The notes under the pieces: generated by a model | Told to the model about the DNA's origin: nothing | Databases searched by the model: none | What the model saw: only the letters and a program-made list of their open reading frames with translations | Translations under genes and position numbers: made by a program | Origin: Bacillota bacterium | GTDB lineage: Bacteria > Bacillota_E > Sulfobacillia > Sulfobacillales > JAIMBI01 | DNA: 33,747 nucleotides | Direction of reading: 5' to 3' | Assembly: GCA_021828405.1 (NCBI GenBank) | Contig: JAKARZ010000022.1 | Coordinates: forward strand, 1-33,747 | Shown: piece after piece, positions 6,981 to 27,232 of the stretch | How the letters are laid out: every line of letters starts with the position of its first letter | How positions within the stretch are numbered: the stretch's first letter is position 1

Positions 6981-7139
6981 GCGCCACCCCCTGCCGCGCG
7001 CGGCTCCGCAGGCGCTCTCGCGCCTCCATAGAAAGTATAGCGTATGGGTGCGGCCAACCTGGCCGGCGCGCGGTCAGCACCCGAGCCGTCCTCCGAGCGG
7101 TACACTTACCCCGAGACGCAGGGGGAAAGGAGGCACGGC

Positions 7140-8798
7140 GTGGGTCACAAGCACGAGTTCGCGCGCCGAGTCCCCTGGGGGAGCCTCCTGCCCTGGGCGC
7201 TCGGCGTGTCCGTGGCGGCGGCGGGCGCGCTGTGGTGGCACACGTCCCGTGCGGCGGCGGCCGCCAATTACCGGGCCTACCTCGAAAGCCAGCAGGCCCT
7301 GGCTTTTTTCCGCGCCGGGGATGCCGGGCGCGCGCGGACGCTGTTGGTGTCCGCCGACCAGGCGATGGGTCTCGCCGGCCATACGCTGGCCACGCCCGGC
7401 GACGCACGGCAGGTGGCCGCGCTGGCGGCGGCGCACCTGGCCGGGGCGACGAGCGGCATACCATCGGCCGGGGCCGTGGGGCTGGCGGTCGCGCTGGTGG
7501 CCTTCATGGCGCTGGGCGGGGCGATGTGGCGCTACGAGCGGCGACTGGAGCGCGAGCAGGCGCGGCGCGAGGAGTGGGAGCGCCAGTGGGCGGAGGAGGC
7601 TCGAGTGGTCGCTGCGGCCGTCTCGGACTCCACGGGGATGAAAGTGGTGCTGGCGCAGGTCCTGGACAGCGTCGTCACCCGACTGAACTTGGAGGAGGCG
7701 CTGCTGCTGCGGTGGCGGCCGGACCGGCCGCTGGATGCCCTCGGACTGTACGCGTTTTCCGGGCGGGCGCCCGGCCGGGCATGGACATCCGTCCCCGCCG
7801 TATACCTGGCCGAAGGTTCCACCGGTGCGGGTCGGGCGCTTTCGACCGGCACGCCCTGGCACCGGGCCGCCGGGGCTTCGCTGCCGTTGCTGCCGGCGTA
7901 CAACCCGCCGGGGACGTCGGCCTACCCCATCGTGGTGGATGGATCCGTGTGGGGGCTGTTGGTGCTGGCGGGCGCGTCGGCGAAAGCCTCGGCGGCTGAG
8001 GGGGACGTGGTACCGCGCACGCGCCATCAGGTGGAAAACCTCTTGACCCAGCTTGCCGCGCGCGCGGCGAGCGATCGGAGCCGGGCTTATCAGGAGACCG
8101 TGCGTCTGCAGTCGGAACTGTTGGCACATGTTTCCCACGAACTGCGCACCCCGATGGGCCTGATTCGGGGCTATGCCCGCACGTTGCTGCGTGAAGGCAG
8201 TCGGCTGTCCCCCGAGGAAGAGACCGAATTTCTGACGGTCATCGCGGAGGAGGCGGAGCGGCTCTCAGTCTTGGTCGACCGGCTCTTGAAAATGGCGGCG
8301 CTGGAGGGCGGAGAGATGGCGCCGGCCCTGACATCGGTGGACGTGGCCGAGCTCGCGGCGACGGTGGTGAGCCAACTGGCTCCTTCGGAGCGCCGGCGAG
8401 TGTCCCTGCACATCGCATCAGGAATTCAAGTCCACGGGGACCGCGAGGGTTTGCTTGAGGTGGTCAGCAACCTGGTGGACAACGCGATCAAGTACTCGTC
8501 CGGGGTGGTCGACGTTTCGGCCGCGTTGCGGGACGGGATGCTGGCCCTGGCCGTGCGGGACAGGGGGCCCGGGGTGTCCGAGACCGAGCTGCCGCGTCTG
8601 TTTGACCGCTTCTATCGGGGCGAGGTGGCGAGGCGCCAGCCCACGGTGCGGGGCACCGGCTTAGGCCTTGGCATCGCGCGGCGCATTGTGCAGAACCACG
8701 AGGGGCGCATTACCGTGTCCAACGCTGGCGGCGGCGGGCTCTTGGTGGAGGTGCTCCTGCCGCAGATGGCGCAGCGGCGCGAGGGGGTGGGCCCGTGA
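7140..8798 (+). CDS. Membrane sensor histidine kinase of the Kdp locus (KdpD kinase half)
   Basis: 552 residues. Two membrane segments (about 13-33 and 110-130) enclose an extracytoplasmic loop of about 75 residues. Then come a charged helix, a GAF-like region (about 180-310), HisKA with HVSHELRTP (His333) and HATPase_c with the N box NLVDNAIKYS (Asn444), DRGPGVSE and GTGLGLGIA. It presumably phosphorylates the regulator encoded next, whose GTG overlaps its stop. Classical KdpD has four closely spaced membrane helices and an N-terminal P-loop/USP sensor; both are absent here, and the sensor modules are on the divergent gene. The frame opens at ATG 7044, but GTG 7140 has a perfect AAAGGAGG site 6 bases upstream and leads directly to a basic N terminus, so I chose it. 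Confidence 0.9.
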   Translation: MGHKHEFARRVPWGSLLPWALGVSVAAAGALWWHTSRAAAAANYRAYLESQQALAFFRAGDAGRARTLLVSADQAMGLAGHTLATPGDARQVAALAAAHLAGATSGIPSAGAVGLAVALVAFMALGGAMWRYERRLEREQARREEWERQWAEEARVVAAAVSDSTGMKVVLAQVLDSVVTRLNLEEALLLRWRPDRPLDALGLYAFSGRAPGRAWTSVPAVYLAEGSTGAGRALSTGTPWHRAAGASLPLLPAYNPPGTSAYPIVVDGSVWGLLVLAGASAKASAAEGDVVPRTRHQVENLLTQLAARAASDRSRAYQETVRLQSELLAHVSHELRTPMGLIRGYARTLLREGSRLSPEEETEFLTVIAEEAERLSVLVDRLLKMAALEGGEMAPALTSVDVAELAATVVSQLAPSERRRVSLHIASGIQVHGDREGLLEVVSNLVDNAIKYSSGVVDVSAALRDGMLALAVRDRGPGVSETELPRLFDRFYRGEVARRQPTVRGTGLGLGIARRIVQNHEGRITVSNAGGGGLLVEVLLPQMAQRREGVGP

Positions 8799-9526
8799 AC
8801 GCCTTGGCGGGCCGGGTGCTGGTGGTGGATGATGAGCCCAAGTATCGGCGCCTCATTGTCACCAACCTGCGTTTCGCGGGCTACGAAACCGATGAGGCGG
8901 AGGACGCGGCGAGCACGCTGCGGGCGCTCGCCGCCGTCGAACCCGATCTGATCCTTTTGGACCTGCGACTGCCCGGAGCGGACGGCGTGCAGCTTTGCCG
9001 ACGCATTCGGGAGCGATCGTGGGTGCCTATCATCATGGTGACCGCGCTGGACGCCGAGCCCCAATTGGTGGCCGGATTGGACGCGGGCGCGGACGACTAC
9101 ATTGCCAAGCCGTTCAGCCCCGAGGAACTCCTGGCGCGCATTCGGGCGGTGCTGCGCCGCCATCGGCAGAGTGTGCCCAGCGAGCAGCTGGTGTGCGGCG
9201 GCGTGGCGCTGGACAGCGACACGCGCACGGTGGCCGCGGACGGGCGCGTGACGCGCCTCACGCCGACGGAGTGGCGGTTGCTCGCCGAGTTTGTGCGGCA
9301 GTGTGGGAAGGTGCTGACGCACGAGTACCTGCTGACCCGCGTGTGGGGGGCCGGGTACCAGTCGGACCATGAGTACCTCCGGGTGTACGTGCGACGCCTG
9401 CGCCAGGCGATTGAAGCCGACCCGCGCCATCCGGTGCGGCTGGTGACCCATGCGGGCATTGGATACGTGTTGAAGCCCCTGGACGCGTCCGCCCTCCCGC
9501 CGGCGGGCGCCGCGCCGCCGCCGTGA
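8795..9526 (+). CDS. kdpE: OmpR-family response regulator, KdpE-like
   Basis: 243 residues: a receiver domain (about 6-120) with acidic pair Asp12/Asp13, phospho-acceptor Asp56 in LILLDLRLPG, MVTALD and YIAKPF, then a winged-helix DNA-binding domain (LTPTEWRLLAEFVRQCGKVLT, VYVRRLRQAIE). The GTG start overlaps the TGA of the kinase gene (GTGA), so translation is coupled. Position before kdpA and a tandem TTTACACC site just beyond its stop make activation of the kdp genes its likely job. The short Ala/Pro-rich tail is not conserved in the family. Confidence 0.92.
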   Translation: MNALAGRVLVVDDEPKYRRLIVTNLRFAGYETDEAEDAASTLRALAAVEPDLILLDLRLPGADGVQLCRRIRERSWVPIIMVTALDAEPQLVAGLDAGADDYIAKPFSPEELLARIRAVLRRHRQSVPSEQLVCGGVALDSDTRTVAADGRVTRLTPTEWRLLAEFVRQCGKVLTHEYLLTRVWGAGYQSDHEYLRVYVRRLRQAIEADPRHPVRLVTHAGIGYVLKPLDASALPPAGAAPPP

Positions 9527-9663: not shown

Positions 9664-11376
9664 GTGACCATTCCGGGCATTTTGGGAATTGTGCTTTTCA
9701 CGGCAGTGGCGGTGGCCATCGCCAAGCCGGTCGGGCTTTACCTGTACGCGGTGTTCAATGACGGCCGCACCTGGCTCGACCCGGTGATGCGGCCCTTGGA
9801 GAAGCGCATCTATCGCTGGACGGGCGTCAATCCCGCCCAGGAGATGCGCTGGACGCAATATTTTCTTGCCATCCTGGCGTTTAACCTGGTTGGCTTTGTG
9901 GTGCTGTATATCTTCCTGCGGATTCAGGCGGGGTTGCCATTCAACCCACAGCATCTGAAAGACGTGGGGCCGCACCTGTCGTTCAATACGGCGGTGAGCT
10001 TCATGACCAACACCAACTGGCAGGCGTACGGCGGCGAGTTCACCATGAGCTACGTGTCGCAAACCATGCTGGTAGTGCAGCAGGTGCTGTCGCCCATCAC
10101 CGGGCTGGCGATCGTGGTGGCCTTCATCCGGGGGTTCACCCGTAGGAGCGGCTCGAACCTCGGCAACTTCTGGGTGGACCTGGTGCGCGCTGTGTTGTGG
10201 GTCATGCTGCCGGTGTCGCTCATCAGCGCGGTGGTGCTCGTGGCGCTCGGCACCCCGCAGAACTGGATGCCTTACGTGACGGCACACCCTTTGCAGGGGG
10301 GCACGCAGACGATCGCGCAGGGGCCGGTGGCCGGGATGACGGCGCCCATGCAGTTTGGGGACAACGGTGGTGGCTTTTTCAACATGAACGCGGGTCAGCC
10401 TTACGAGGCCGCGTCCGCGGCGTCGCTGCTGTTCCAGTCGCTCCTGGGGGTGGCGGTCCCTGTGGGGCTTACGTACTACTTTGGCAAGGCCGTGAAGGAT
10501 ACCCGCCAGGGCTGGATCATCCTGAGCGCGATGGTGGTCATGTTTTTGGTGGGCGTCTTCATCGTGTACCACGCCGAGGCAGTTGGCAATCCCTTGATCC
10601 ACCGGCTCGGCGTGCGCGGGCCCAACATGGAAGGCAAGGAGGTTCGCTTTGGGCCCGCCTTGTCGTCGCTGTTCGAGACGCTGACGACCGCCGTATCGTG
10701 GGGGTCCACCGCAGCGGCCAACGACAGCCTGATGCCCCTCAGCGCCCTGGTGTTGATGTTCAACATGAAGAGCGGAGAGGTCATCATTGGGGCTTGGGGC
10801 GTGGGGCTCATTGGCATGCTGGCGTTTGCCATCTTGGCTGTATTCCTGGCCGGCCTGATGGTGGGCCGCACACCGGAGTATCTTGGCAAGAAGATCCAGA
10901 GCTTCGAGGTCAAGATGGCCGTGCTAGCCATGATCGCGCCCACCTTCGTTGTCTTGGGCTTCGCCGGCTGGGCGGTCAGCACCAAGGGGGGACTCGCGGG
11001 AATCTTCAATCCAGGCCCGCAGGGACTTGGGGAAGTTTTGTACGCCTATGCCTCCGGTGTGGGCAACAACGGATCGGCGATGGGCGGGCTGGGGGCGGCA
11101 CTGCCCTTCTATACGTGGACGGTGGGATTGGCCATGCTGCTGGGACGGTTTGCCCAGTACATTCCCGCGCTGGCCATTGCCGGGTCCGTGATTGAGAAGA
11201 AGACGGTACCTCCCAGCGCGGGCACTTTCCCGACCAACACCTGGCTGTTTGGTGTGCTCCTGATTGTCACCGTGGTGATCGTGGGGGCGCTGGTGTTCTT
11301 CCCAGCCCTGGCCCTCGCACCCTTGGCTGAGCACTTCGCCCTGTGGGCGGGACATGTCTTTGGGGGAGGGAGCTAG
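9664..11376 (+). CDS. kdpA: Potassium-transporting ATPase K+-binding subunit KdpA
   Basis: 570 residues and about ten membrane helices. This is the channel-like subunit of the KdpFABC high-affinity K+ pump. All four filter regions are recognisable: TNTNWQAYGGE (115-125), GDNGGGFFNMN (232-242), TTAVSWGSTAAAND (341-354) and SGVGNNGSA (464-472). The helix-capping motif GRTPEYLGKK is present. In filter 2 the usual GTN is GDN, and the usual AHPFENPT tail is GQPYEAAS, mild departures from the E. coli type. GTG start with a GAGGTGG-type site. The stop abuts the kdpB ATG directly. Length is normal (E. coli 557). Confidence 0.96.
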   Translation: MTIPGILGIVLFTAVAVAIAKPVGLYLYAVFNDGRTWLDPVMRPLEKRIYRWTGVNPAQEMRWTQYFLAILAFNLVGFVVLYIFLRIQAGLPFNPQHLKDVGPHLSFNTAVSFMTNTNWQAYGGEFTMSYVSQTMLVVQQVLSPITGLAIVVAFIRGFTRRSGSNLGNFWVDLVRAVLWVMLPVSLISAVVLVALGTPQNWMPYVTAHPLQGGTQTIAQGPVAGMTAPMQFGDNGGGFFNMNAGQPYEAASAASLLFQSLLGVAVPVGLTYYFGKAVKDTRQGWIILSAMVVMFLVGVFIVYHAEAVGNPLIHRLGVRGPNMEGKEVRFGPALSSLFETLTTAVSWGSTAAANDSLMPLSALVLMFNMKSGEVIIGAWGVGLIGMLAFAILAVFLAGLMVGRTPEYLGKKIQSFEVKMAVLAMIAPTFVVLGFAGWAVSTKGGLAGIFNPGPQGLGEVLYAYASGVGNNGSAMGGLGAALPFYTWTVGLAMLLGRFAQYIPALAIAGSVIEKKTVPPSAGTFPTNTWLFGVLLIVTVVIVGALVFFPALALAPLAEHFALWAGHVFGGGS

Positions 11377-13437
11377 ATGGCGGCGCAGATAGAGGCAGGT
11401 CGGATCCACTCGGAGAGTCTCGTAGGACCCTCGATTCGGGAGGCATTTCGGAAGCTCAAACCGTCCTGGATGCTGCATAACCCCGTCATGTTCGTGGTGG
11501 AAATCGGCAGCGTGCTCACGACGCTGGATGCCGTTCGGTATCTGGCGCTCGGGGAGGGGCGGTTGTTCACCTTTGTGCTGCAGATTGCCATTTGGCTGTG
11601 GCTCACGGTGCTGTTTGCCAATTTTGGCGAGGCGATGGCCGAGGGGCGGGGCCAGGCGCAGGCAGCCGCCCTGCGGGGGGCTCGCACAGACACGCTGGCC
11701 AACCGGATGGCCGATGGCCAGGTTACCGTGGTGGCCGCGACCGAACTGCGCAAGGGCGACCTGGTTGTCGTGTCCGCTGGTGAGGTGATTCCCAGCGATG
11801 GCACGGTGGTGGAAGGCGCGGCGGCGGTCGACGAGAGTGCCATCACCGGCGAATCCGCGCCCGTGATTCGCGCCAGCGGCACCGACATCGACGCGGTGAC
11901 CGGGGGCACGCGGGTGATTTCCGACCGCATCGTGGTCCAAATTACCGCCAACCCCGGCGAGACGTTTCTGGACCGCATGATCGCGCTCATCGAGAACGCG
12001 GTGCGGCGGAAAACCCCCAACGAGATTGCGCTCGCGATTCTCTTGGCGGGCCTGACGCTGATTTTCGTCGTGGTGGTGCTGTCTACCGAACCCCTGGCGA
12101 TTTACTCGGGGAAGTCCGTGTCGCTGACGATTCTCATCGCGCTCTTGGTGTGCCTCGCCCCGACGACGATTGGCGGGCTCATGTCGGCCATAGGCATCGC
12201 GGGCATGAACCGGATGCTGCAACACAACGTGCTGGCGCTGTCGGGCCGCGCGATTGAGGCGGCCGGCGACGTCAACAGCATCCTGCTCGACAAAACCGGG
12301 ACGCTCACGGTGGGCAACCGGATGGCGACCGAATTCCTGCCGGTGGACGGCGTGGACGCCAACACCCTGGTGGAAGCCGCACTCCTGTCATCGCTTGCGG
12401 ATGAGACGCCGGAGGGGAGGTCGGTGGTGAAGCTGGCGGGGGAGCACTATCACCTCACGCGGGACCGGGACACGATGCCGGGTGCCGAGTTCCAGGGCTT
12501 CACGGCCCAGACCCGTATGAGCGGGGTGGACGTTGATGGGCGCCAGATCCGCAAGGGAGCCCCTGACGCGGTGCGCGCGTATCTGGACGCGGCCAGCAAG
12601 CCCAATGGCGGCCGCCAACTGGAGGAGATGGTCACGGCCATCGGCCGCCAGGGGGGCACGCCGCTGGTCGTCGCGGACGACCGCCACGGGGCACTGGGCG
12701 TCATCCACCTGAAGGATGTGGTCAAGCCGGGGATCCGCCAGCGGCTGTCCGACCTGAAGAAGGCGGGCATCAAGACCGTGATGATCACCGGGGACAACCG
12801 GGTGACGGCGGAAACCATCGCGCGCGAGGTAGGCGTGGATGAGTTCCTGGCGGAGGCCACGCCCGAAAGAAAGCTGGAGTACATCAAGCGCGAGCAGGGC
12901 GAAGGGTATTTGGTGGCCATGGTGGGGGATGGCACGAACGATGCGCCGGCGCTGGCGCAGGCCGACGTGGCCGTGGCGATGAGCAGTGGCACGCAGGCGG
13001 CCCGCGAGGCCGGGAACATGGTGGACCTGGACTCGAATCCCACGAAGCTGTTGGACATCGTGGAAATCGGCAAGCAGATCCTGATCACGCGGGGCGCCAT
13101 GACGACGTTCTCGATTGCCAACGACGTGGCGAAGTACTTCGCCATCATTCCCGCCATGTTCGTGCCGATCTTCCCGGGCCTGGAGGCGCTGAACATCATG
13201 CATCTGACTTCACCGGAGTCTGCGGTGCTGTCGGCCGTGATTTTCAACGCGATTATCATTCCGCTGCTGATCCCGCTCGCGCTGCGCGGGGTGAGCTACA
13301 AGCCGGTGAGTGCCGCGACGCTGCTGCGGAACAACCTGCTCGTGTACGGGCTCGGGGGGCTGGCGCTGCCGTTTGTGGGCATCAAGCTGATTGACCTTCT
13401 GGTCACGGCGCTTCATCTCGTGGTGCTTCATGGTTAG
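11377..13437 (+). CDS. kdpB: Potassium-transporting ATPase ATP-binding subunit KdpB
   Basis: 686 residues, a P-type ATPase (class IA). Order: two N-terminal helices, actuator domain with TGES (regulatory Ser160, equivalent to the inhibitory phosphoserine of E. coli KdpB), two helices with APTTIGG, phosphorylation motif DKTGT (Asp305), nucleotide domain with GRQIRKGA, the hinge MITGDN and [19 protein letters not shown], then TM5 with [11 protein letters not shown] carrying the Asp/Lys pair used for coupling, and the C-terminal helices. It drives K+ uptake with KdpA. ATG follows the kdpA TAG without a gap. Confidence 0.97.
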
Positions 13438-13467: not shown

Positions 13468-14046
13468 ATGATTCGCCATCTGTGGACAGCTACGAAGATG
13501 CTAGTCATCATGATCGTGCTGGTCGTGGTGTACCAAGCGGTGGTCACCGGCGTAGCTCAGGTGCTGATGCCGTATCAGGCGAACGGCAGCTTGATTCGAC
13601 ACAACGGGGTGGTGGTGGGGGCCGGCCCCATTGGCCAGGCCTTTACGGCCAAGAAGTTCTTTTGGAGCCGGCCTTCCGCCGCCAGCTACAATGCGGCTGC
13701 GTCCACGGCGTCCAACTATGGGCCCACCAACCCCGCCCTGTTGAAGGAAGTGAAAGCCAACCTGGCGGCCTTCTTGAAAGCCAATCCAGGCGTCAAGCCC
13801 AGCCAGGTGCCGATCGACATGGTCACCAGCTCGGACAGCGGGCTCGACCCGGACATCACCGTGGCGTCCGCGATGATTCAGGTGCCGCGGGTGGCGGCCG
13901 CCAACGGCCTGTCGGCGTCGTCGGTGCGGGCGCTGGTGGTGTCGCAGGAGGTGGGGCGATGGCTCGGGCTCTACGGCCTGCCCCACGTGAACGTGCTGCG
14001 GCTCAACCTGGCGCTCACCACGCTGGCGCGTCACAAGGGATCGTAA
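13468..14046 (+). CDS. kdpC: Potassium-transporting ATPase subunit KdpC
   Basis: 192 residues, with one N-terminal membrane helix (about 10-33) and an extracytoplasmic domain. Family signatures are present: GQAFTAKKFFWSRPSA, YGPTNP, SSDSGLDPDITVASAMIQVPRVA, and VNVLRLNLAL at the end. KdpC stabilises the complex and affects ATP affinity. ATG with an AAAGGGGGAAG site, 30 bases after kdpB. It completes a normal kdpABC set; no kdpF precedes kdpA. Confidence 0.95.
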   Translation: MIRHLWTATKMLVIMIVLVVVYQAVVTGVAQVLMPYQANGSLIRHNGVVVGAGPIGQAFTAKKFFWSRPSAASYNAAASTASNYGPTNPALLKEVKANLAAFLKANPGVKPSQVPIDMVTSSDSGLDPDITVASAMIQVPRVAAANGLSASSVRALVVSQEVGRWLGLYGLPHVNVLRLNLALTTLARHKGS

Positions 14047-14133: not shown

Positions 14134-14250
14134 ATGCTGGATGTGCTGGGCATCTTGACCGTGGTGGCGTTTTTCTTCGCCTGCGAGGCGTACATCGGGT
14201 ATTGCGAACGGTTGCGCCGCGCCGAGCATGAAAGCGGGGCTGGGCGATGA
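14134..14250 (+). CDS. 38-residue single-pass membrane peptide upstream of kdpF
   Basis: A small ORF with AGGAGG 9 bases before its ATG. It reads as a short hydrophobic helix followed by a basic end: VVAFFFACEAYIGYCERL, then RRAEHESGAGR. Short unnamed peptides with a hydrophobic helix and a C-terminal Y-x-x-C-(E/D)-x-L element commonly lie just before kdpF in other bacteria, as I recall from many annotated kdp operons. Function unknown. Its TGA overlaps the kdpF ATG (ATGA). An 87-base gap separates it from kdpC; no convincing promoter was seen there. Confidence 0.75.
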   Translation: MLDVLGILTVVAFFFACEAYIGYCERLRRAEHESGAGR

Positions 14251-14333
14251 TCACCATGGTGGTTGGCGGCATCATTGGGGTGCTGGTTTCCTTGTACCTG
14301 TTTTACGCGCTGCTGTATCCCGAACGCCTCTAG
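14247..14333 (+). CDS. kdpF: KdpF small subunit
   Basis: 28 residues: one membrane helix ending in SLYLFYALLYPERL, which matches the Y-L-x-Y-A-L-L-x-P-E-(R/K)-(F/L) signature of KdpF, a lipid-like stabiliser of the KdpABC complex in the membrane. It is translationally coupled on both sides: its ATG overlaps the previous TGA, and its TAG shares a G with the GTG of the next gene. It lies between the two kdpABC sets, in the position kdpF normally has relative to the second set. Confidence 0.88.
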   Translation: MITMVVGGIIGVLVSLYLFYALLYPERL

Positions 14334-15721
14334 TGTCAGGTGCCGCGCTCGAGACGTGGGGCGTCGCCGCCGCCGTGTGGGTCGTGGCAGCGCGCCCCTT
14401 AGGGCGCTATGTGGTGCGCGTGGTGAATCGGGAGCCGACCATGCTCGATCCCTGGCTCACAGGGGTCGAGCACTGGTGTGTGGGGCGTCGCGCCGCGGAG
14501 CCAGCACCTTCCAGAAGCCTCGGGTGGTACGGGCTCGGCGCGATGGCGGTGGCGCTGGCTTGTGGCTGGAGCGCTCGGGTGCTGGGGACGGCCGCGGGGC
14601 CCAGCCCGGTCGTGGGGGCCGTCTTCGCGGTGGCCGCGCTGCTGGGCGGGATGGCGGCCCAGTTGGCGGTGGTGCTGGCCGGGCTGCGCGCGCTGGGGGG
14701 CCATGCGCCCGGCCGCCTGGCGCTTGACTGGATCCGCCTGCTGACCCGCGTCGCGTTGCCGTTCGTCCTGGTGCTGGGGATCGCCTTGGCCGCGGCGGGC
14801 GTGGCGAACAGCGTGCGAGTGCCTCAAGCACTCTTGGACGCGGCGCGCTTGGTGTCCGGCCACAGTGTGTCGGCGGCCGGCCTGGCGTTTTCGGGGTCGG
14901 CCAATGTGATGGCGGTGGCCGCGATGGGCCTGTTGCCGCTTGCGGTGTTTCGCGCGGCGGGGCCACTCACCGGGAGTGTGGCGCTCGGGCGCGCGCTGCC
15001 GCTGGTGCTGGTGGCATGGTTTGGCCTGGTGGGCATCGGGGTCGAGTGGACGAGCGGCATCAGCCTCGCGGGTGTCCCGACGGCCTGGGGGCTTTCGGGC
15101 ACGGCCTTGCACACGGCGGCCGGCGCCACGCTGGGGCTGGGCGCCGGGCCGGTGCTCACCGGGCTGTGGCCTGAGATGCTGGCCACCGCCGGCCAATTGG
15201 CGCAAGTGGCCGGAGGCCCGGTGGGCAGTGGGCTCCTGCCCCTGATGGGTCTCGCCGTCCTGACGGCTGTGGTGGTCAACCTCATGCGGGGGCGCTCACC
15301 CGTCTTCCTAGGTCGGCGCGTGGGGCTGGGAGCCATCGTGGCCGGGGCCGCCCTCTATGGCATGCGGCCCGTGCTGGTGCTGGGAACGCTCGGGGTCATG
15401 GCTGCCGTCGGGCCCCGTTCGGGGTCCCTGGCGATGCGCGTCGCCTCGGTGGCCGCGTCCTTGGGCAGCCCACACCTGGGAGCTATGCCGTGGGCGGGCA
15501 CCCTGGGTGTGCTGAGTCTGGTCGGCACCTATACTCCCTGGGTGATTTGGTTGCGCTGGGCCGGGACCGGGCTCAGACCGGAGCCACGACTGCGGTTCGA
15601 GGAGGGGCTGGTGGGCGCACGGGGGTGGCTTGTCGCGCTGCTCATCGCCAGTATGGTCATGACGGCGCTGCTGTTCCTGCCGGTTTTGGCGCTGGGGCCC
15701 GTGGTGGGGGCTAATTCGTGA
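14333..15721 (+). CDS. Degenerate KdpA paralogue (KdpA2) without K+ filter signatures
   Basis: 462 residues, about 108 shorter than KdpA in the same locus and very hydrophobic. Homology is visible at the N terminus (ARPLGRYVVRVVNRE, then MLDP and TGVEH), at GRSPVFLGRRV (from about residue 320, equal to GRTPEYLGKK in KdpA) and in the C-terminal helix order. None of the four filter motifs survives: TNTNWQ, the NGGGFFN loop, the third filter and NNGSA are all absent, replaced for example by SGSANVMAV and ASLGSPHLGAM. The frame is intact, with no internal stop. The GTG at 14333 overlaps the kdpF stop (TAGTG), which fixes the start despite an open frame further upstream. It is not expected to transport K+ in the normal way. 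Another substrate, proton leak or a regulatory role is possible. Confidence 0.82.
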   Translation: MSGAALETWGVAAAVWVVAARPLGRYVVRVVNREPTMLDPWLTGVEHWCVGRRAAEPAPSRSLGWYGLGAMAVALACGWSARVLGTAAGPSPVVGAVFAVAALLGGMAAQLAVVLAGLRALGGHAPGRLALDWIRLLTRVALPFVLVLGIALAAAGVANSVRVPQALLDAARLVSGHSVSAAGLAFSGSANVMAVAAMGLLPLAVFRAAGPLTGSVALGRALPLVLVAWFGLVGIGVEWTSGISLAGVPTAWGLSGTALHTAAGATLGLGAGPVLTGLWPEMLATAGQLAQVAGGPVGSGLLPLMGLAVLTAVVVNLMRGRSPVFLGRRVGLGAIVAGAALYGMRPVLVLGTLGVMAAVGPRSGSLAMRVASVAASLGSPHLGAMPWAGTLGVLSLVGTYTPWVIWLRWAGTGLRPEPRLRFEEGLVGARGWLVALLIASMVMTALLFLPVLALGPVVGANS

Positions 15722-17658
15722 CGCGGGGCGGGCGGCGCTGCCTCTCGCGTCTCGGCCATCCGGTGCTGGCGGTGCTGGCCGCCGGAACGGCCGTGGCCTG
15801 GATGTGGGCCCTCGCGGGTCCCATGCCGGAGCGCGGCTATGCGGCAGCGGTCGGCAGCCTGTCACTGCTGACCGTGTTCATGGCCCTGTGGACGGAGGCC
15901 GTGGCCGAGGGACTTGGGCGAGCCGCCTCGGGTGCGTTGCAGGGGCGGAACGATACCCCGGCGCGGGTGCTCAACCCGTCCGGCACGGTGAGGCCGGTGG
16001 CAGCCGACGCGCTCCGTCGCGGGCAGCGGATTCGCATTGAGGCCGGAGAGCAGGTTCCGGGCGACGCGGTCGTGGTGGCGGGAGGCGGCACCGTGGACGA
16101 GAGCGCCATGACGGGGGAGTCGGCTCCGGTGTTGAAGCAGCCCGGCGATCTGCTGACCGCCGGCACGATCGTGGTCATGGGTGAGGTGGAGGCGACGGTG
16201 CGCTCCGATCCAGACGAGTGGTATCCGCGCCGGCTGGTGCGCACGATCGAAGGTACCAGTCGCCCGGCGTCGGTGACCGAGCAGACGCTATCGTGGTTCC
16301 TGGGGGTCTTTTCCGGGTTCATGCTGGTGATTGCCCTGTCGCTCGCACCCATCTCGGCCCGGTGGGTGCCCGGTGTGAGCAATCCAGCGCTGTGGCTGGG
16401 TTTGGCTCTTGCCCTGATCCCCACCACGGCCGGCGCCCTGCTGCCCGCCATCGGGTTCGCGGAGCGGCGCCACTTGGCCCGACTGGCTGTAGTGCCGCGC
16501 GGCAGCCGCGCTTTGGAGCGAGCCGGTGACGTCGACACGGTGGTGGTGGACAAGACAGGCACGATTACGGAAGGGCGCCGCACGGCAACCGAGCTGATGC
16601 CCTTGCCCGGAACCTCGCCGGAGACACTGGCGTGGGGCGCGTACCTGGCTTCTGTCCAGGACCGCACGCCCGAGGGCCGCACGGTGGCGGCCCTGGCCGC
16701 CGCGCGCTTGGCCGGGCCCCTGCCGGCCGTTGTGGGCATGCCGGTGCCATTCTCGGCCCGCACGCGCCTTTCGGGCGTGGATCTGCCGGACGGCCGCCAA
16801 ATTCGGAAGGGGGCTATCTCGTCGATTCGGCTGCTGACCGACACGGGGCTGGCGCCGCTGGAGGAACTGGCCGATGGGGTGGCGTGGAGTGGGTCCACGC
16901 CGCTGGCGGTGGTGTTGGACGAGGAGCCCTTGGGCATCGTGCGGCTGGACGACCGGGTGCACCCCGCGGCGCCGGACTGGATGGCCCAATTTCGTGTGCT
17001 CGGGCTCCACACGGTGCTCGTCACCGGCGACCACCCGCTCACCGCCGCGGTGATTGCGAACGCCCTATCGGTGGATGAGTACCGGGCTGAAGCGACGCCC
17101 GAGGGCAAGCGCGCCCTGATTCGCGAGCTGCAGGCCCAAGGGCGGGTGGTGGCCATGACGGGGGACGGAGTGAACGACGCGCCGGCCCTAGCTCAGGCGG
17201 ATGTGGGCCTGGCGCTCGCCGCCGGCGCGCCGAGCGCACAGGAGAGCGCGAATCTGGTGGATCTGGACTCCGAGGCGGGCAAGCTTGCGGCCGTCGTGCG
17301 CATCGGGCGCGAATTGGCCGTCACGCGGGGGGCGCTCATCACGTTCTCGGTGGCGACGGACTTGGCCAAGTATTTCGTGGTGGTGCCCGGCGTCTTGGCG
17401 AGCCTCGGTGTCGGGCTGCTGCCCGGATTCGCCGCCTTGGGGCTGGGGAACCCGGGCCGCACGGTGCTGGCCGCCCTGATCTTTAATTTGCTGTCCATCC
17501 TCGGACTCCTGCCGGTCGCGGTTCGCGGCACCCGCCGCCCAACGGCCCCGTGGGTGCGGCAGCTCGTGGTATGGGGTGGGGCGGGCCTGGTGTCGGCCCT
17601 GGTCGGCATCGTCGCGATTGGGGCCGGCCTGGGCTGGATCGCGCGGGTGTTCGGGTGA
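15718..17658 (+). CDS. KdpB paralogue (KdpB2), catalytic motifs intact
   Basis: 646 residues; the cytosolic N-terminal tail is about 25 residues shorter than in KdpB. Motifs kept: DESAMTGESAPV (Ser135), IPTTAGALLPAIGF in TM4, DKTGT (Asp278), GRQIRKGA in the nucleotide domain, [19 protein letters not shown], and TM5 FSVATDLAKYF with the Asp and Lys. One change is in the hinge, TGDH instead of TGDN. All residues needed for the phosphoenzyme cycle are present, so it should be an active P-type ATPase. GTG overlaps the kdpA2 stop (GTGA). Preservation of this gene next to a filterless KdpA2 argues against simple decay. Confidence 0.88.
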   Translation: MTRGGRRCLSRLGHPVLAVLAAGTAVAWMWALAGPMPERGYAAAVGSLSLLTVFMALWTEAVAEGLGRAASGALQGRNDTPARVLNPSGTVRPVAADALRRGQRIRIEAGEQVPGDAVVVAGGGTVDESAMTGESAPVLKQPGDLLTAGTIVVMGEVEATVRSDPDEWYPRRLVRTIEGTSRPASVTEQTLSWFLGVFSGFMLVIALSLAPISARWVPGVSNPALWLGLALALIPTTAGALLPAIGFAERRHLARLAVVPRGSRALERAGDVDTVVVDKTGTITEGRRTATELMPLPGTSPETLAWGAYLASVQDRTPEGRTVAALAAARLAGPLPAVVGMPVPFSARTRLSGVDLPDGRQIRKGAISSIRLLTDTGLAPLEELADGVAWSGSTPLAVVLDEEPLGIVRLDDRVHPAAPDWMAQFRVLGLHTVLVTGDHPLTAAVIANALSVDEYRAEATPEGKRALIRELQAQGRVVAMTGDGVNDAPALAQADVGLALAAGAPSAQESANLVDLDSEAGKLAAVVRIGRELAVTRGALITFSVATDLAKYFVVVPGVLASLGVGLLPGFAALGLGNPGRTVLAALIFNLLSILGLLPVAVRGTRRPTAPWVRQLVVWGGAGLVSALVGIVAIGAGLGWIARVFG

Positions 17659-18152
17659 GCGCCGTCCGCAGCGTGGTCACCGGCGTGATGGCGCTGTTGC
17701 TGGCCGTGGCCGTGATGTCGGGCTTGTCGCTGGCGACGTCAGCGGCCGTCAGTCGAATCTCGCCACCTGTGGACCTGGGGCCAGCGCCGGCTACGCCGTC
17801 CGGGCGCTTCTGGGAGCGCCCGACGACCGCGAGTGTTGCGCCGGGCGCGGTGGCCCAGGTGGCGCGCCGCCGCGCGCGGCAGCTCCGGCAGGCTATGCCG
17901 AGTCCGGGAGCGGTGCCCACCTCCTTGGTGGCGCCGGTGGGGAGGGCGGCCGACCCCAACATCTCGCTGGGTGCGGCCCTGTTTCAGGTCCCGCGCGTGG
18001 CCGAGGCCACGGGCCTTAGCCCCGCATACCTGCGCGGACTGGTGTTGCTGGGCGCTGCCCGCGGCCTGTTCAATCTCGCCGGGCCGCGCTACGTCAACGT
18101 GGTATGGTTGGACCACCAGGTTGACGCCGCTGTGGGGCCGTCTCACCGATAA
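17655..18152 (+). CDS. Reduced KdpC paralogue (KdpC2)
   Basis: 165 residues, one N-terminal membrane helix and a shortened outer domain. KdpC traces: GRFWERPT (cf. FFWSRPS), DPNISLGAALFQVPRVAEATGLS (cf. the LDPDIT...QVPRVA element) and the final RYVNVVWLD (cf. HVNVLRLN). The middle part with YGPTNP and the SSDSGL stretch is missing or replaced by an Arg-rich segment. GTG overlaps the kdpB2 TGA, so the whole kdpF-A2-B2-C2 set is stop/start coupled. The open frame begins earlier (17550), but that part is a shadow of kdpB2. It ends at a hairpin. Confidence 0.8.
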   Translation: MSAVRSVVTGVMALLLAVAVMSGLSLATSAAVSRISPPVDLGPAPATPSGRFWERPTTASVAPGAVAQVARRRARQLRQAMPSPGAVPTSLVAPVGRAADPNISLGAALFQVPRVAEATGLSPAYLRGLVLLGAARGLFNLAGPRYVNVVWLDHQVDAAVGPSHR

Positions 18153-18749: not shown

Positions 18750-20390
18750 TTAGTGGCCGCGGAAGGCTTCGGCCAGCCACCACGACGGTTCGCCGCGGGT
18801 CACTTTGGCGTCGACGACCATCGGGCGGTCCTGCGGGCCAGCCAGCCAAGCGGCAACGGGTGACAGGTCGGCCGGGGCGCGGACGGTGACTCCGGCGCAG
18901 CCAAAGCCGCGAGCGATTTCGGCGATGTTTGCGGGCGGGAACGTGACGTGCTCGAGGGGATGGCCCCCGGGGCCGAAGTGGTGGACCTCCGCGCCGTAAG
19001 CTTCGTCGTCGTAAACCACCACCAGCAGCCCAAGTCCGAGGCGGACCGCGGTCTCGAGGTCCGCGATGCCCATCAGGGTGCCGCCGTCGCCGAGTGCAGC
19101 CACCGTGAGCCGATCCGGGCGGGCGACCGCGGCACCTATGGCTGTTGCCAGCCCTAGGCCCACAGCCTGAAATGCCTGGGTGAAGACGAAGCCATTGGCG
19201 TCGGGTACCTCCAAAAACATGGTCGGATATCCCATGAAGTTACCCGAATCGACCGCGACCGTTCGTGCGTCCGGCAGCAGGCGGTCGAGGGCAATGGACA
19301 GGGTGCGGGGGTCGATCCTGCCATCTTCCGAGTGTTCGTCATAGGGAACGTCCTGCCAGCGGCCGGCCCGAGCGAGGCGCTCGGCGACCGCATCGGAGCG
19401 GTAGCCTCGGACCGGTCTGGCGCCGCGGCGGTCCAGTTCCCGCTGGACCGCCCTGGCTGCTGCCGCTGTGTCACCCACGATTCCCAGGTTGACGCGGTAG
19501 TGCGCGCCGAGCGCGTCTGGGTCGCTGTCGACTTGGGCGATGGTGGTCCCGTCGCCGACCAGAGCGCCGCGGCGAAGCGTCCATCCGTTAAGTGCGCCTC
19601 CCCAGCCGACCAGCAGATCCGCCCCACGGATGAGGTCGGCCGCGGCCGGGGTGGCGAAACCGCCGCTCACGTCGAGATTGAACGCCACACCCCGAAACAG
19701 CCCGCGCGCGACGGCGGAGGTCGCGAGGAGCGCTCCAACCCGCTCGGACAACTGCACCAGCTCGTCTCTCGCTGAGCGGGCCCCTCGGCCCGCGAGGAAG
19801 ACCGGCCGGCGTGCGGCCAGCAGGGCATCGGTCAACTCCGCGATCGCGTCCGGCAAGGGCTCGGAGAGGGGCACGTTCGGAGCGGCGGGCAGCGTGAACG
19901 GTGCAGCCGGCTCGGCCTGCACCTCGAGCGGCAGGGTTAGGATCACCGTCCGGCGATCGCCGCAGGCGGTGTGGTAGGCGCGGGCGAGGTCGGTGGCGGC
20001 CGTGGCCGCGGAACGGACGCGAACTACGCTTGCGCCCACGGCCTGTGCCAGGGCAGTTTCGTCGAGGTAGAAGTTGGACCGTGGGTTGGTCACCGTGGGT
20101 GCGAGCACCAACAAGGGGGTGCGGCTCTTTGCCGCCTCGGTGATCCCGGTGAGCGCGTTAGTCAATCCCGGCCCTTGGTGCACCGAGAGCACCCCGAGCT
20201 TCCCGCTCACCCGGGCGTAGGCGTCAGCCATCACGGCTGCGCCGCCCTCATGCCGGGCCGCGATAAATTTCGCGCCGCCTTCGGTAAGCGCATTGGTGAG
20301 GTGGAAATTGCCACTTCCTACGAGGCCGAACACGGTGCGGACACCCGCGTGCGCCAGCGCGGTACCGACCGCGCTGGCGACGGTGGTCAT
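18750..20390 (-). CDS. TPP-dependent enzyme of the acetolactate synthase-like family
   Basis: 546 residues in the three-domain thiamine diphosphate layout. The N-terminal PYR domain has FGLVGSGN and the activating Glu in AARHEGGAAVMADAYAR, then VHQGPGLTNALTG. The central domain (about 190-320) has FLAGRGA and GADLLVGWGGALNG. The C-terminal PP domain has ALGDGG, with YDDEAYG where many members have N-x-x-YG. It probably decarboxylates or ligates a 2-oxo acid; the substrate cannot be read from sequence. The ATG at 20390 overlaps the stop of the cyclase gene (ATGA), so the two are coupled. Upstream in-frame codons overlap the cyclase gene and are not used. It could be a decarboxylase acting on the ring-opened product of the partner. 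Confidence 0.88.
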   Translation of the reverse strand: MTTVASAVGTALAHAGVRTVFGLVGSGNFHLTNALTEGGAKFIAARHEGGAAVMADAYARVSGKLGVLSVHQGPGLTNALTGITEAAKSRTPLLVLAPTVTNPRSNFYLDETALAQAVGASVVRVRSAATAATDLARAYHTACGDRRTVILTLPLEVQAEPAAPFTLPAAPNVPLSEPLPDAIAELTDALLAARRPVFLAGRGARSARDELVQLSERVGALLATSAVARGLFRGVAFNLDVSGGFATPAAADLIRGADLLVGWGGALNGWTLRRGALVGDGTTIAQVDSDPDALGAHYRVNLGIVGDTAAAARAVQRELDRRGARPVRGYRSDAVAERLARAGRWQDVPYDEHSEDGRIDPRTLSIALDRLLPDARTVAVDSGNFMGYPTMFLEVPDANGFVFTQAFQAVGLGLATAIGAAVARPDRLTVAALGDGGTLMGIADLETAVRLGLGLLVVVYDDEAYGAEVHHFGPGGHPLEHVTFPPANIAEIARGFGCAGVTVRAPADLSPVAAWLAGPQDRPMVVDAKVTRGEPSWWLAEAFRGH

Positions 20391-21157
20391 TTTTCGACCA
20401 GCGCCAGCACCCGCGCCGGCGATCCAGAACCTGTGACGATCGGCAGCGGCGCGGCGATGACCACCGCCCCGGTGACGGGCAGCCGATCGAGGTTGCGGAG
20501 CTGGGTGAGGCCGCACTTGCCCGCGCCGAGCACCGCCGCGTGGCACGGAAAAGCGGGTGTGAATCCGAACGCCTGGCCCGCGTCCGTGCCCACGGTCTCC
20601 ACTCCGACGCCCAAGAGATCGGTCGCGGCCAGGTACGTGGCGGCTTCGGGTGTCATGCCCGGCGTGTGTGAACCCTGGTCGTCGGCGTTGGCGTATCGTG
20701 TGGGGTCTTCTCCCCGCGCGGACCAGCCGGTGCGGAACAAGAGCCAGCCGTCCTTCGGCAGGAGCCCGTGGTGTTGTTGCCAGTCTTCCAGGTCCTTGAC
20801 GTCGAGCAGGTAGTCAGGGTTCGCCGTGGCCTCGGCGACCCGGTCGATGACGACGGCGGGGCCGATCAGGCGGCGCGGCGGGATCTGGGACACATCCACG
20901 CGGTCTTTGCCGGTCACCCAGTGGTTCGGCGCGTCCAGGTGCGTGCCGGTGTGCTCGCCGGTGCTGAAGTTGTTCCAGTACCAGGCGGGGCCGCGGTCGT
21001 CATACCGACTGATTTCTTCGAGCTGGAACGGCCGCGTCTGACCCCATTCGGGCGGCAACTGCAGGATGGGAGTCGCCGAGTGCAACGGGGACGTGAGGTC
21101 GATGACCTCGATTGATCCATCGATGATCCGCGCTGCCAGCGTAGCGACATTATTCAT
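20387..21157 (-). CDS. Cyclase-family metal-dependent hydrolase
   Basis: 256 residues of the cyclase/kynurenine formamidase-like family (PF04199). The metal-binding signature H-T-G-T-H-L-D-A-P lies at residues 69-77, followed by NHW. Later LLFRTGW, GMTPEAATYLA, LGVGVETVGTDAG and CHAAVLGAG match the conserved core. Members hydrolyse cyclic amides or N-formyl groups (isatin hydrolase, kynurenine formamidase). ATG 21157 gives the family N terminus (IDLTSPL); a longer frame to 21214 is unlikely. It is the first gene of a two-gene operon with the TPP enzyme. No clear ribosome site, so the start is moderately certain. Confidence 0.88.
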   Translation of the reverse strand: MNNVATLAARIIDGSIEVIDLTSPLHSATPILQLPPEWGQTRPFQLEEISRYDDRGPAWYWNNFSTGEHTGTHLDAPNHWVTGKDRVDVSQIPPRRLIGPAVVIDRVAEATANPDYLLDVKDLEDWQQHHGLLPKDGWLLFRTGWSARGEDPTRYANADDQGSHTPGMTPEAATYLAATDLLGVGVETVGTDAGQAFGFTPAFPCHAAVLGAGKCGLTQLRNLDRLPVTGAVVIAAPLPIVTGSGSPARVLALVEK

Positions 21158-21371
21158 AGTCGGCACTATAGCGGGACGACCGCGTGCCGTCAACGGCCTC
21201 CGGGCTCTATGCACGGTAACGTCAAAGTGGTAGTCGATTTGGGGGTGGCCGTGAGGACGTAAAGCGGTGGACGCAGTGAGGAGAAGCCGCCGAGGGCGGG
21301 CCCCGCCGCGTGGGACGGACGTGAGGCCGCCGGTCGGCCGTCGGGCGACCGGTATGGTTGGGGCCGACGGG

Positions 21372-22600
21372 TTAGGCGTCGAGGAACGCGGTCGCCACGT
21401 GGTCCGGTCGGCGATTGAGATAGTTCACCGCCCGTTGGAGATTGGGGACGCCAACCGATGGAGGAAACTCAGCGCCGTATTGCGTCCGCGGGCCGTGCCC
21501 CGTCCGCGGGCCGTGCCCCGTCCGCATTTGCGACCGGTCTGCGTCGTAGATCCCATCGCGTTCCGCGTGCAGAATTTCGATGCGCCCGTGACCCCGGACT
21601 CACGCCCCGATTTGCGCGGCCGTGGCCTGCTCGGGCGGGAGATCGGTGAGGCCAAACACCACTTCCGTGCGGGGGTGGGAGCTGTCCAGCGCGGTCACCT
21701 GGCGGTCAATCCGAAACACGGGGCCCATATGCGGCCAGGCGAGATCGTCATTGAGTACCGTCGTCGTGCGCACCGTCCGCCGTTCGATCCGGCCGTGGCC
21801 CCGATCGACCGTTTGGGCCGGAGGGGGAAAAGTCGGCGAGCTCGAGCGCCGCGCACGCCGCCTGGATGCTCGGTTGGTTCCCTGTCACCTCCCTTACATC
21901 ATGCGCGTGTTTCTCCTGGACGAGGAACGTGGCGGTTGCGGTTGGCGTATGGAGCGCGTCGGTGGGGACGATGTGCCCGGTAATGTCCAGCGGCGCCAAC
22001 AAGTCGCGCAGTCGGGGGATCTCATGGGTTTTGACCTCCCCCGCGACCTGGCGCAGCCCCTGGCCGGTGCGCGGGGACTGCACGGGGCGCGTCCGCGCCC
22101 CATGCACCGAGCCCCGCAGGCTTTGCCCGTCGATCGCGCGGGCCTCGCCCGGGCCGCGGGGATCGGTGTCCAACCAGGCGCTGACCGTGGCATCGACAGC
22201 GTCGGGATCGACCTGCTGCAAGACGCGGCGCAGCGTGGGTTCGCTCGGCACCTGATAGGTGTTGCCCCAACGCGGACACCCGAACCGGCGGCGCCAGTCC
22301 AATTCAAGGTGGTCAGGTCGAGCATCGTCGGGGTGCCTCCCATCAAGGCGGGCGTGAGGAATAGGGCCCGGAGCGGCGCGGCCCCGTCCGGGCTCAGGGG
22401 GCGGACCCAGATCTGTTGGGGCTGGTCGTGGCGGACATAGTGTCGATGCTGGCCCGCGAAGCCGCACGTCCGCCCCACGTCCGTGCACCCCGCCGCCCGA
22501 TGGCTGGTCCCGGCGTACCGGCTGGGGTCGACGAACGTTTCCGCCACCAGGACCGGGTGTCCGTAGACTGCGGTCCAGTCCGCGCGGAGGCCGGGTGTTT
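21372..22600 (-). pseudogene. Broken transposase: DUF4338 (DruA-like) C-terminus fused to an ISAs1-type DDE domain
   Basis: Minus-strand homology is spread over different frames, with at least one in-frame stop. N-terminal part: YGHPVLVAETFVDPSRYAGTSHRA, as in the C-terminal region of DUF4338 proteins, which are also present in some transposases. Next comes an ISAs1/H-repeat transposase pattern: SEPTLRRVLQQVDPDAVD, AIDGQSLRG, VKTHEIPRLRDLLAPLDI, PTDALHTPTAT, VTGNQPSIQAA. In a further stretch come VFGLTDLPPEQATAAQIGA, a stop, then VRGHGRIEILHAERDG, DRSQMRTG and LNRRPDHVATAFLDA before a final TAA. The catalytic HW-x-IE-type region is altered. No terminal inverted repeats were identified, so the IS boundaries are unknown. 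Confidence 0.8.
21484..21519. repeat. 18-base tandem repeat inside the transposase remnant
   Basis: An 18-base unit beginning GTCCGCGGGCC is present twice in tandem (21484-21501, 21502-21519), followed by the first six bases of a third copy. It is in frame and duplicates RTGHGP in the C-terminal RTG-x-GP motif of the ISAs1-type transposase, so it is probably replication slippage in a decaying gene. Confidence 0.8.
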
Positions 22601-23001
22601 TGGGCGAAAGTGCAGCCTGTGTCTCTTCTTGATGGCTCCTTCAGGAGCTCAGCGCACCACATCGGCTCACCGCGGGCAAGCCTATGCGGCCGTTTGACGC
22701 CTCCCGCGCCCCGCTGCGGTCAGCGAATGGGGGACAATCAAGGGGACCCCGCTGTCGGGCCTGGTGTCATCGCCAGGAACACGTGTTGAAGAGAGCCGTC
22801 CGCCGGGAGGAGGCGGCTACGCAGGGAGTACCGGCGTATCCGGGGAGGTTACGCTTCCGTGGGACCTTCCCATTCGGTGTGCCGATGCCACCTGAACCTT
22901 TCCACCGCTAACGCCGGCGGTCAGGACCACCTTTTCGTTCCTGGTGATGGCCTGCAGGACCATCGAGAATGGCTATCGTCCCCAGTGGCGGAGGCAGTGA
23001 C
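22601..23001. other. 400 bases with no supported gene
   Basis: It lies between the transposase remnant and the nucleotidyltransferase gene. Short frames on both strands lack motifs and ribosome sites. It may include the lost N-terminal portion of the transposase and the IS end, but no recognisable residue pattern remains. Confidence 0.4.
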
Positions 23002-26298: not shown

Positions 26299-27066
26299 TC
26301 AACGCGGGGGAGGGGAGCCGTCGGCGGGGACCGTATCCGCTTCGAGACGATCGATGATGAGCGTACTCAGCCACGACTGGGTATCCACCGCGTCGATGCC
26401 CAGATCGCGGAGCGCTTGCACCGCGTTCGACCGTTCGGCCACCGCCAGGATGGCGCCGGAGGGAGCGGCCCGATGGGCTTCAATGGCCGCCATGAGCACG
26501 TCGCCGTCGCTGGCCCCGACAATGAGGATTTGTCGGGCTCGCTCCAGATGCGCCTTGGCCAGCACGTGCGGATTGGCCGGGTCCCCGACGATGACGTCCA
26601 TGCCCGCGTGGTCAGGCAAGTGCCCACGATCCACGTTCTCCGCGACTAGGACAACATGCGGATGGCGCGCCAGCAGGTCGGGCATCAGGTGCGGAATGAG
26701 GGAACTGAAGCCGAGGACCACCCAGTGGTCCTCGGCGCGGGTGTGATGCATCCCCAACAACCTCCTCAGGTGCAAACTGGCGAGCGCGCTGGACCACTCG
26801 GCAAAGGCGGCGGCCAACAGCGGAATCACCGTCAGCATGGTGGCCATGGCGATGATCCGCCCCCCCACGGAGTGGGGCACCACATCGCCGTAGCCGACGG
26901 TCGTGGCGGTGACGACCGCCCAATACAGCCCCACGAACCAGCGCACATGCTGGTCCAGGCTGAAGGCCGTGGCCCCCGCCACCACGCCCACGAGGGCCAG
27001 CACCGTATAGTGCCACGCCGGCCGGGCACGGACGCGATTGAAAAGGATCTGGAGCAGTCCCACCAT
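26299..27066 (-). CDS. Two-TM potassium channel with RCK/TrkA-N-like domain
   Basis: 255 residues. TM1 (about 19-37), a pore helix, the K+ filter TVGYGD at residues 56-61, TM2 (about 67-88), then a cytoplasmic Rossmann-like domain (about 110-230) with WVVLGFSSL, VVLVAEN, DVIVGDPANPHVL, RARQILIVGASDGD and AVAERSNAVQAL. It resembles the MthK/Kch-type channel with an RCK gating domain; the first Gly-rich loop is GFSSLIP rather than G-x-G-x-x-G, so nucleotide binding may be altered. Start: GGAGGCGC about 10 bases before ATG 27066 favours this Met over ATG 27102, which lacks a ribosome site. Together with Kdp it suggests attention to K+ balance, though it lies 8 kb from the kdp operon. Confidence 0.9.
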   Translation of the reverse strand: MVGLLQILFNRVRARPAWHYTVLALVGVVAGATAFSLDQHVRWFVGLYWAVVTATTVGYGDVVPHSVGGRIIAMATMLTVIPLLAAAFAEWSSALASLHLRRLLGMHHTRAEDHWVVLGFSSLIPHLMPDLLARHPHVVLVAENVDRGHLPDHAGMDVIVGDPANPHVLAKAHLERARQILIVGASDGDVLMAAIEAHRAAPSGAILAVAERSNAVQALRDLGIDAVDTQSWLSTLIIDRLEADTVPADGSPPPR

Positions 27067-27232
27067 CGCTTCGGCGCCTCCGTGTGTGAAACTCGTGTCC
27101 ATTCATAGGGACCGGTGCAAACCGAAGCCCCGGGGAGAAGGTCCCCGCAAGCCCACGACTTGAGCCGAGGGCTCTGTGGCGCTCGCTCAGGATCAGTGAT
27201 GCGGAGGGAAGGGGGCCGCCTGTACCATTATA
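27067..27232 (-). promoter_or_regulatory. Promoter -10 and structured leader of the K+ channel gene
   Basis: A perfect TATAAT lies at 27227-27232 on the minus strand; no good -35 is seen. The leader of about 150 bases folds into at least two hairpins: GAGCC-CTC-GGCTC and CGGGGA-CCTTC-TCCCCG. The length and structure allow a riboswitch or attenuator, but I could not match a known class. Confidence 0.4.

Follow-up and report, generated by a model that had tools for sequence, protein, structure and literature searches.

What can a Kdp pump do once its KdpA subunit has lost the K+ filter, when an ordinary pump of the same family is encoded directly in front of it? The question is raised by a stretch of 33,747 nucleotides from a Bacillota bacterium of the order Sulfobacillales (assembly GCA_021828405.1, contig JAKARZ010000022.1; "the window" below means this whole stretch), in which an ordinary kdpABC operon (set 1) is followed by a second set of genes, kdpA2-kdpB2-kdpC2 (set 2). 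Set 2 is conserved under purifying selection, less strictly than set 1, and since it is under selection it probably has a job different from that of the K+ pump. The best reading, which we put forward tentatively, is that KdpA2, KdpB2, and KdpC2 may form a P-type pump that has given up K+ selectivity at its ion entry. The genes concerned are the following.

9664..11376, plus strand: KdpA1, 570 amino acids, ordinary KdpA with filter (Pfam, 684.6 bits; motifs present)
11377..13437, plus strand: KdpB1, 686 amino acids, ordinary KdpB (Pfam; residue alignment)
13468..14046, plus strand: KdpC1, 192 amino acids, ordinary KdpC (Pfam, 223.5 bits)
14134..14250, plus strand: small open reading frame (sORF), 38 amino acids from ATG 14134 (TTG 14125 is possible too), penultimate gene of operon 1
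14247..14333, plus strand: KdpF, 28 amino acids, last gene of operon 1 (comparative gene order)
14333..15721, plus strand: KdpA2, 462 amino acids, GTG start at 14333, without K+-filter motifs (Pfam, 59.8 bits)
15718..17658, plus strand: KdpB2, 646 amino acids, P-type ATPase subunit (catalytic and ion-site residues kept in alignment)
17655..18152, plus strand: KdpC2, 165 amino acids, KdpC with two deletions (Pfam, 53.2 bits; alignment)

KdpA2 belongs to the KdpA family (Pfam PF03814), which it matches with 59.8 bits when read from 14228 (497 amino acids; cut-off 22.6), compared with 684.6 bits for KdpA1, and among solved structures a profile built from the KdpA2 clade picks out Escherichia coli KdpA (E 2.1e-12). 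It is 108 residues shorter than KdpA1 (462 versus 570 amino acids), in agreement with the original prediction. The alignment of its N terminus with that of KdpA1, which had also been claimed, does exist, but the match is weak (16/55 identical, E 0.004); the main evidence of homology comes from the C-terminal half and from the profiles. The further claim that every filter motif has gone holds for filters 1, 2, and 4, the patterns of which occur in 0/12 KdpA2 rows and in 34/36, 36/36, and 36/36 canonical KdpA rows, respectively; both canonical rows that miss the filter 1 pattern read SNTNWQ. Before these counts, 7/48 KdpA rows were dropped (four second readings of A1 rows and three misread short ones). 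The 12 KdpA2 rows consist of five genome copies (the window, G001, G002, G003, and G005) and seven database proteins, four of which are copies of those in G001, G002, G003, and G005 (in full or at 98-99%), leaving eight distinct copies. One row, P0006, is a 279-amino-acid fragment that ends before filter 4, and another, P0007, gives the single match to a looser filter 4 pattern, N[NG]G. The claim goes too far for filter 3 and for single residues: filter 3 and its flank are altered, yet the Gly at E. coli position 345 is kept in 5/5 genome copies, and in the alignment so are the Gly at E. coli position 232 (beside a gap) and Ser469. Deletions make the alignment of KdpA2 uncertain around filters 1 and 2.

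Of 129 columns that are near-invariant in canonical KdpA, 74 are absent from all five KdpA2 genome copies, and 35 persist in every one of the five; Gly or Pro accounts for 22 of these 35. V496 has become Pro in 5/5 copies, E370 is Gln in three and Glu in two, and R400 is Arg in four and His in one. Clade-specific charges include R220 and R421, at positions where 35/36 canonical rows have Trp and Pro, respectively. An AlphaFold2 (AF2) model of KdpA2 (predicted local distance difference test [pLDDT] 81.9, predicted template modeling score [pTM] 0.87) has ten membrane helices, lacks the first pore loop and pore helix 1, and retains pore helices 2 to 4; it matches KdpA, KtrB, and TrkH of the SKT superfamily, from an input dominated by ordinary KdpA (46 of 54 rows). 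A model built from the clade alone (6 rows) gave nearly the same helix limits at pLDDT 39.4 and pTM 0.29 and offers no independent support for the predicted fold.

KdpB2, which is 41% identical to KdpB1 over 606 columns, finds E. coli KdpB among solved structures with E 6.2e-122. The P-type cycle motifs TGES, DKTGT, and GDGVNDAP and the Asp/Lys pair of M5 are present, and the alignment bears out what had been noted about them. In all five copies T75, E161, S162, P264, T265, T266, D307, F377, K395, D583, K586, and N624 are kept, as are K308, T309, D518, and D522. Near-invariant columns were defined on 36 canonical KdpBs, after 7/50 KdpB rows (three second readings of B2 rows and four short ones) had been dropped. 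Those gone from all five KdpB2 copies are fewest in the P/N domain (21/111), with 4/15 in transmembrane segments (TM) 1-2 and 14/40 in the A domain, and most in TM3-4 (16/34) and TM5-7 (19/50). KdpC2 is reduced, as predicted: the alignment shows two deletions relative to ordinary KdpC, and the match to the Pfam KdpC profile (53.2 bits; cut-off 24.1) covers positions 89-181 of 182 only.

Selection was assessed by pairwise codon models (our own implementation, F3x4; absolute values are approximate) on the five genome copies. An omega of 1 was rejected in 30/30 set 2 pairs, the smallest test value (25) being that of a KdpC2 pair. Among pairs with dS <2.5, the remaining ones being saturated, omega was 0.085-0.111 for KdpA2 (5/10 pairs), 0.042-0.074 for KdpB2 (6/10 pairs), and 0.105-0.243 for KdpC2 (3/10 pairs), compared with 0.012-0.039 for KdpA1 (10/10 pairs) and 0.010-0.027 for KdpB1 (7/10 pairs). 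The dN/dS check proposed for kdpA2 and kdpB2 in the original prediction thus returns purifying selection on both genes, and its view that set 2 is not a plain pseudogene gains from this and from the conservation of the clade.

The filterless KdpA2 with its second operon was found as a strong match in 4/42 genomes of the order, and the loss of filters 1, 2, and 4 is common to 12/12 KdpA2 rows; the conserved clade that had been proposed as support is therefore there, and the copy in the window is not a lone decayed one among intact homologues. All relatives of set 2 come from draft genomes or are database proteins without genomic context: loci L001-L003 (G001-G003, Bacillota metagenome-assembled genomes) came from a genome scan and G005 from a search of the order, and the protein database holds seven homologues of 47-89% identity, which a profile query returned again together with one ordinary KdpA. 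No filterless KdpA outside the clade was found when the protein database was searched with a profile, with scoring of the 7993 candidates that had the most words in common, nor in 154 genomes of the class or 398 genomes drawn from the phylum, with at most 10 and 4 candidates scored per genome, respectively. Matches at E <=1e-15 occurred in 16/154 class genomes, namely, the four clade genomes and 12 with an ordinary KdpA by Pfam, and in the phylum draw only G002 (1/398) matched at E <=1e-30. PF03814, run over the class, revealed no intermediate between ordinary KdpA and the A2 clade: matches across most of the family reach about 600 bits or higher, A2-clade pieces reach 26-29 at best, other low matches cover the family partially (several begin at a contig end), and two weak ones (G071 and G107) fall under the cut-off. 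A plasmid search with KdpA2 gave no match, and no comparable filterless Kdp paralogue is described in the open-licence literature among the matches listed.

The genes after kdpABC are coupled, as had been reported: in the window the TAG stop codon of kdpF and the GTG start of kdpA2 at 14333 overlap by 1 base, and there is a 4-base overlap at each of the kdpA2/kdpB2 and kdpB2/kdpC2 junctions. The kdpF stop also overlaps the kdpA2 start in G001, G002, and G005 and is merely adjacent to it in G003. The gene order of the clade is D-E-A1-B1-C1-sORF-F-A2-B2-C2, divided in G001 over two contigs, and a promoter and terminator scan yielded nothing beyond chance level. The original prediction counted kdpF as the first gene of set 2. 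It is instead the last gene of operon 1, because type I relatives without a second set also end in kdpC-sORF-kdpF; these are L064, L065, L066, L067, and L069, in which no Kdp set lies in the 1.8-5.8 kb covered behind kdpF. The same end is found in L055, L062, and L063, and L068 and L070 do not reach this place. Within the clade, identity to the window is 96-100% for KdpF, 91-96% for KdpB1, and 47-70% for KdpA2. The single KdpF found by tblastn with the 28-amino-acid peptide is that of operon 1, though a diverged copy could escape such a search, and it may serve both sets. The sORF at 14134-14250 (plus strand) occurs between kdpC and kdpF throughout the clade and in 8/8 other type I operons whose region covers it; it is possibly a membrane peptide of the pump.

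Where set 2 came from was addressed with a KdpB tree of 43 rows, which places KdpB2 on the set II side, apart from E. coli and the type I KdpBs, with support of 100/100. Approximately unbiased (AU) tests rejected a grouping of KdpB2 with type I KdpB (p-AU 1.05e-5), with KdpB1 of its own genomes (2.3e-4), with E. coli KdpB (1.2e-4), and with the tandem set II KdpBs of G014, G006, and G007 alone (0.012); a common clade with the orphan KdpBs of G011 and G012 was not rejected (0.189). The KdpB2 branch is long (2.73 in a midpoint-rooted drawing) and its composition is odd, so its exact placement within set II is provisional. Beyond its own clade, KdpB2 scores highest in the order against KdpBs of set II (532 bits at most, 47%), above the score to KdpB1 (403 bits, 41%). 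Gene order points the same way. At locus L055 of G014, an intact, ordinary kdpABC of set II comes next among the Kdp genes behind kdpF, beginning with its kdpA, and in L062 and L063 (G006 and G007) kdpF is followed by kdpDE and then set II; the set II KdpA of all three has the filter motifs. Together, the KdpB tree and the gene order suggest that set 2 goes back to an ordinary second Kdp pump, modified where it stood. The idea that it is a duplicate of set 1 is ruled out for KdpB by the AU tests.

We hypothesize the following course. An ordinary second Kdp pump, not a copy of the first, would have stood behind the first kdp operon, and in one sub-clade this second pump would have lost the K+ filter, the vestibule arginine, and parts of KdpC. 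KdpB2 retains the phosphorylation site, the ATP-pocket residues, and the membrane ion site, and it may still run an ATP-driven cycle that moves a monovalent cation, with KdpA2 acting as a ten-helix scaffold or vestibule instead of a K+ filter. The selectivity of such a pump would be low or different; candidate substrates are NH4+, ions resembling Rb+, or K+ where its concentration is high. In E. coli Kdp, selectivity is set by the filter; the filter mutant G232D is reported to remain coupled and to move Rb+ and NH4+ as well, and in that study KdpB is described as relatively promiscuous (PMC12629597). Set 2 is coupled to kdpF and, as the gene overlap suggests, probably under the same KdpDE control.

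Several observations weigh against a pump with K+-unselective entry. The tunnel gate Phe232 of KdpB, which is Phe in 35/36 canonical rows, is Met in four and Val in one of the five KdpB2 copies, and the E. coli KdpB substitutions F232I and F232A are reported to cut transport by 80 and 65% (PMC8385062). The vestibule arginine R493 of KdpA, described as fully conserved (PMC12629597), is Thr or Ala in 5/5 KdpA2 copies. With both F232 and R493 lost, transport by set 2 could be poor or absent. The former pore has also gained positive charges: H177, at position 233 of filter 2, is His in four copies and Arg in one (canonical Gly, 36/36); H260, in pore helix 3, is likewise His in four and Arg in one (canonical Phe, 35/36); and R345, in TM8, is Arg in 5/5 (canonical His in 21 and Pro in 14 of 36). 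These charges, in an alignment that is uncertain near filter 2, make a simple wide cation entry disfavoured; they weaken the case for K+-unselective pumping and are more in keeping with a sealed scaffold, in which any ion would reach KdpB2 by another path. Furthermore, KdpA2 evolves faster than KdpA1 (omega about 0.1 versus 0.012-0.039), and the combined share of Gly, Ala, Arg, and Pro in the window is 0.41-0.45 in A2-C2 versus 0.31-0.32 in A1-C1 (0.44 in A2 against 0.32 in A1; 0.41 in the kinase of the same operon), a richness to be expected where the GC pressure of the host meets a weaker constraint. A more specific form of the pump reading, which we hold with greater reserve, would make set 2 the first P-type pump of the Kdp family to lack a K+ filter in nature, one in which KdpA2 is a scaffold and the ATPase moves another ion or runs reversed while the normal Kdp handles K+.

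The main rival, which we consider doubtful but which follows closely behind, casts KdpA2B2C2 as a modulating partner of pump 1. It would act either through mixed complexes with KdpF, KdpA1, or KdpB1 or through competition, the object of which would be KdpF or the serine kinase KdpD; S162 is kept in KdpB2 in 5/5 copies. The constant position of set 2 behind the kdpF of operon 1 (5/5), the contact between kdpF and kdpA2 described above, and the replacement of filter and vestibule arginine by a positively charged former pore would all suit a partner. However, KdpB2 shares only 41% identity with KdpB1 and its membrane part is much changed, KdpA2 (47-70%) has not been held to the conservation seen in KdpF (96-100%) and pump 1, and a pure regulator need not have kept a whole ATPase with its ion site. 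It is unlikely, on our assessment, that set 2 has become a pump dedicated to a single new substrate or working in a definite new direction, such as ammonium uptake or cation export via KdpB2 alone. The retained ion site of KdpB2, the missing parts of A2 and C2, the clade-specific His/Arg of KdpA2 as potential new functional residues, and the report that a broken-filter Kdp can move NH4+ (PMC12629597) speak for it, as does a glutamine synthetase gene beside the gene for a KdpD N-terminal (KdpDN) protein in the window, G002, G003, and G005; yet synteny within one clade is weak evidence, the synthetase gene flanks the sensor gene and not set 2, and no evidence names a substrate. A slowly decaying remnant, open by chance or after very recent loss of function, is highly improbable. 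High GC makes stop codons rare (stop-free shuffles numbered 199/2000 for kdpC2, 16/2000 for kdpA2, and 0/2000 for kdpB2), and set 2 evolves faster than set 1, but omega lies far under 1 in 30/30 pairs, and in 5/5 lineages the frames remain open and their order unchanged, with KdpA2 identity down to 47%. For the clade taken together, decay is thereby refuted; the refutation does not extend to a very recent loss confined to the strain of the window. As for duplication of the neighbouring kdpABC, the adjacent, tandem position would invite it, but the rejected groupings of KdpB2 with type I KdpB and with KdpB1, which cover KdpB, leave it next to no probability. A P-type pump with altered ion entry stays our first, and tentative, choice.

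The regulatory genes and other neighbours of the two sets are as follows.

3186..4619, minus strand: glutamine synthetase gene adjoining the KdpDN gene (the same neighbour in G002, G003, and G005)
4749..6980, minus strand: KdpDN-type protein, 743 amino acids (PF02702 in two stretches and Usp, by Pfam; clade synteny)
7044..8798, plus strand: KdpD-like histidine kinase with GAF-HisKA-HATPase architecture (Pfam)
8795..9526, plus strand: KdpE-like response regulator (Pfam)
18750..21214, minus strand: genes for a thiamine-pyrophosphate enzyme and a putative cyclase, lying downstream and shared with G001, G002, and G005
21748..22662, minus strand: weak match to the transposase-associated DDE_Tnp_1_assoc (21.6 bits, under the curated cut-off)
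26302..27102, minus strand: ion channel bearing a TrkA-N domain; it lies downstream of set 2 at a distance of about 8 kb

The gene at 4749..6980, which is divergent from the kdp operon, joins two fused KdpDN domains, and the Pfam search found no KdpDN domain in the histidine kinase at 7044..8798. The two domains share one frame in the four clade genomes; elsewhere in the order KdpDN occurs as two neighbouring frames in several genomes and singly in others. In E. coli, the KdpD N-terminal domain is reported to be the KdpB serine kinase (PMC11018627). The idea that two KdpDN domains serve two KdpB targets was rejected, as the number of KdpDN does not track that of kdpB across the order: G013, G019, G020, and G030 have two KdpDN and one kdpB, and G016 and G025 have one KdpDN and two kdpB.

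Kdp is the textbook example of a P-type pump that works together with a channel: KdpA is regarded as the selective part and KdpB as the promiscuous one (PMC12629597). A natural complex in which the filter was lost and the pump kept would be a direct test of this division of labour, and the locus shows a route by which a tandem paralogous pump can be released from K+ duty and altered. Compared with KdpFABC of the E. coli type (PDB 5mrw, 7nnp, and 6hra), set 2 is alike in the KdpA homology (PF03814), in the cycle residues and D583/K586 of KdpB, and in having a KdpC subunit. It differs in that the KdpA of KdpFABC has four K+-filter segments and KdpA2 is without the filter motifs, in the first pore loop missing from the KdpA2 model, in the replacement of R493 and V496 and of F232 in KdpB, in the KdpC deletions, and in that no KdpF of its own was found by tblastn.

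The orphan KdpB-like genes of G011 (L073, 7580-9667, plus strand) and G012 (L074, 243-2339, plus strand) are another derived set II relative within the order. No kdpA or kdpC was found alongside them, the L074 contig beginning about 240 bases upstream; L073 adjoins two KdpDN genes. In these orphans the M4 motif IPTT has become IPLP and GDGTND has become GDGTDD, and the M5 Asp (D583) is lost in one. The ordinary set II Kdp of L055 (G014) occupies the same place behind kdpC1-sORF-kdpF and lies on the same side of the KdpB tree (100/100); its KdpA keeps the filter motifs, and by contrast KdpB2 sits on a long branch. In the E. coli filter mutants KdpA G232D and Q116R, too, the K+ filter is defective, and KdpB is intact (PMC12629597). 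Those are laboratory point mutants that stay coupled, whereas in set 2 the filter was lost in nature and KdpB has changed with it.

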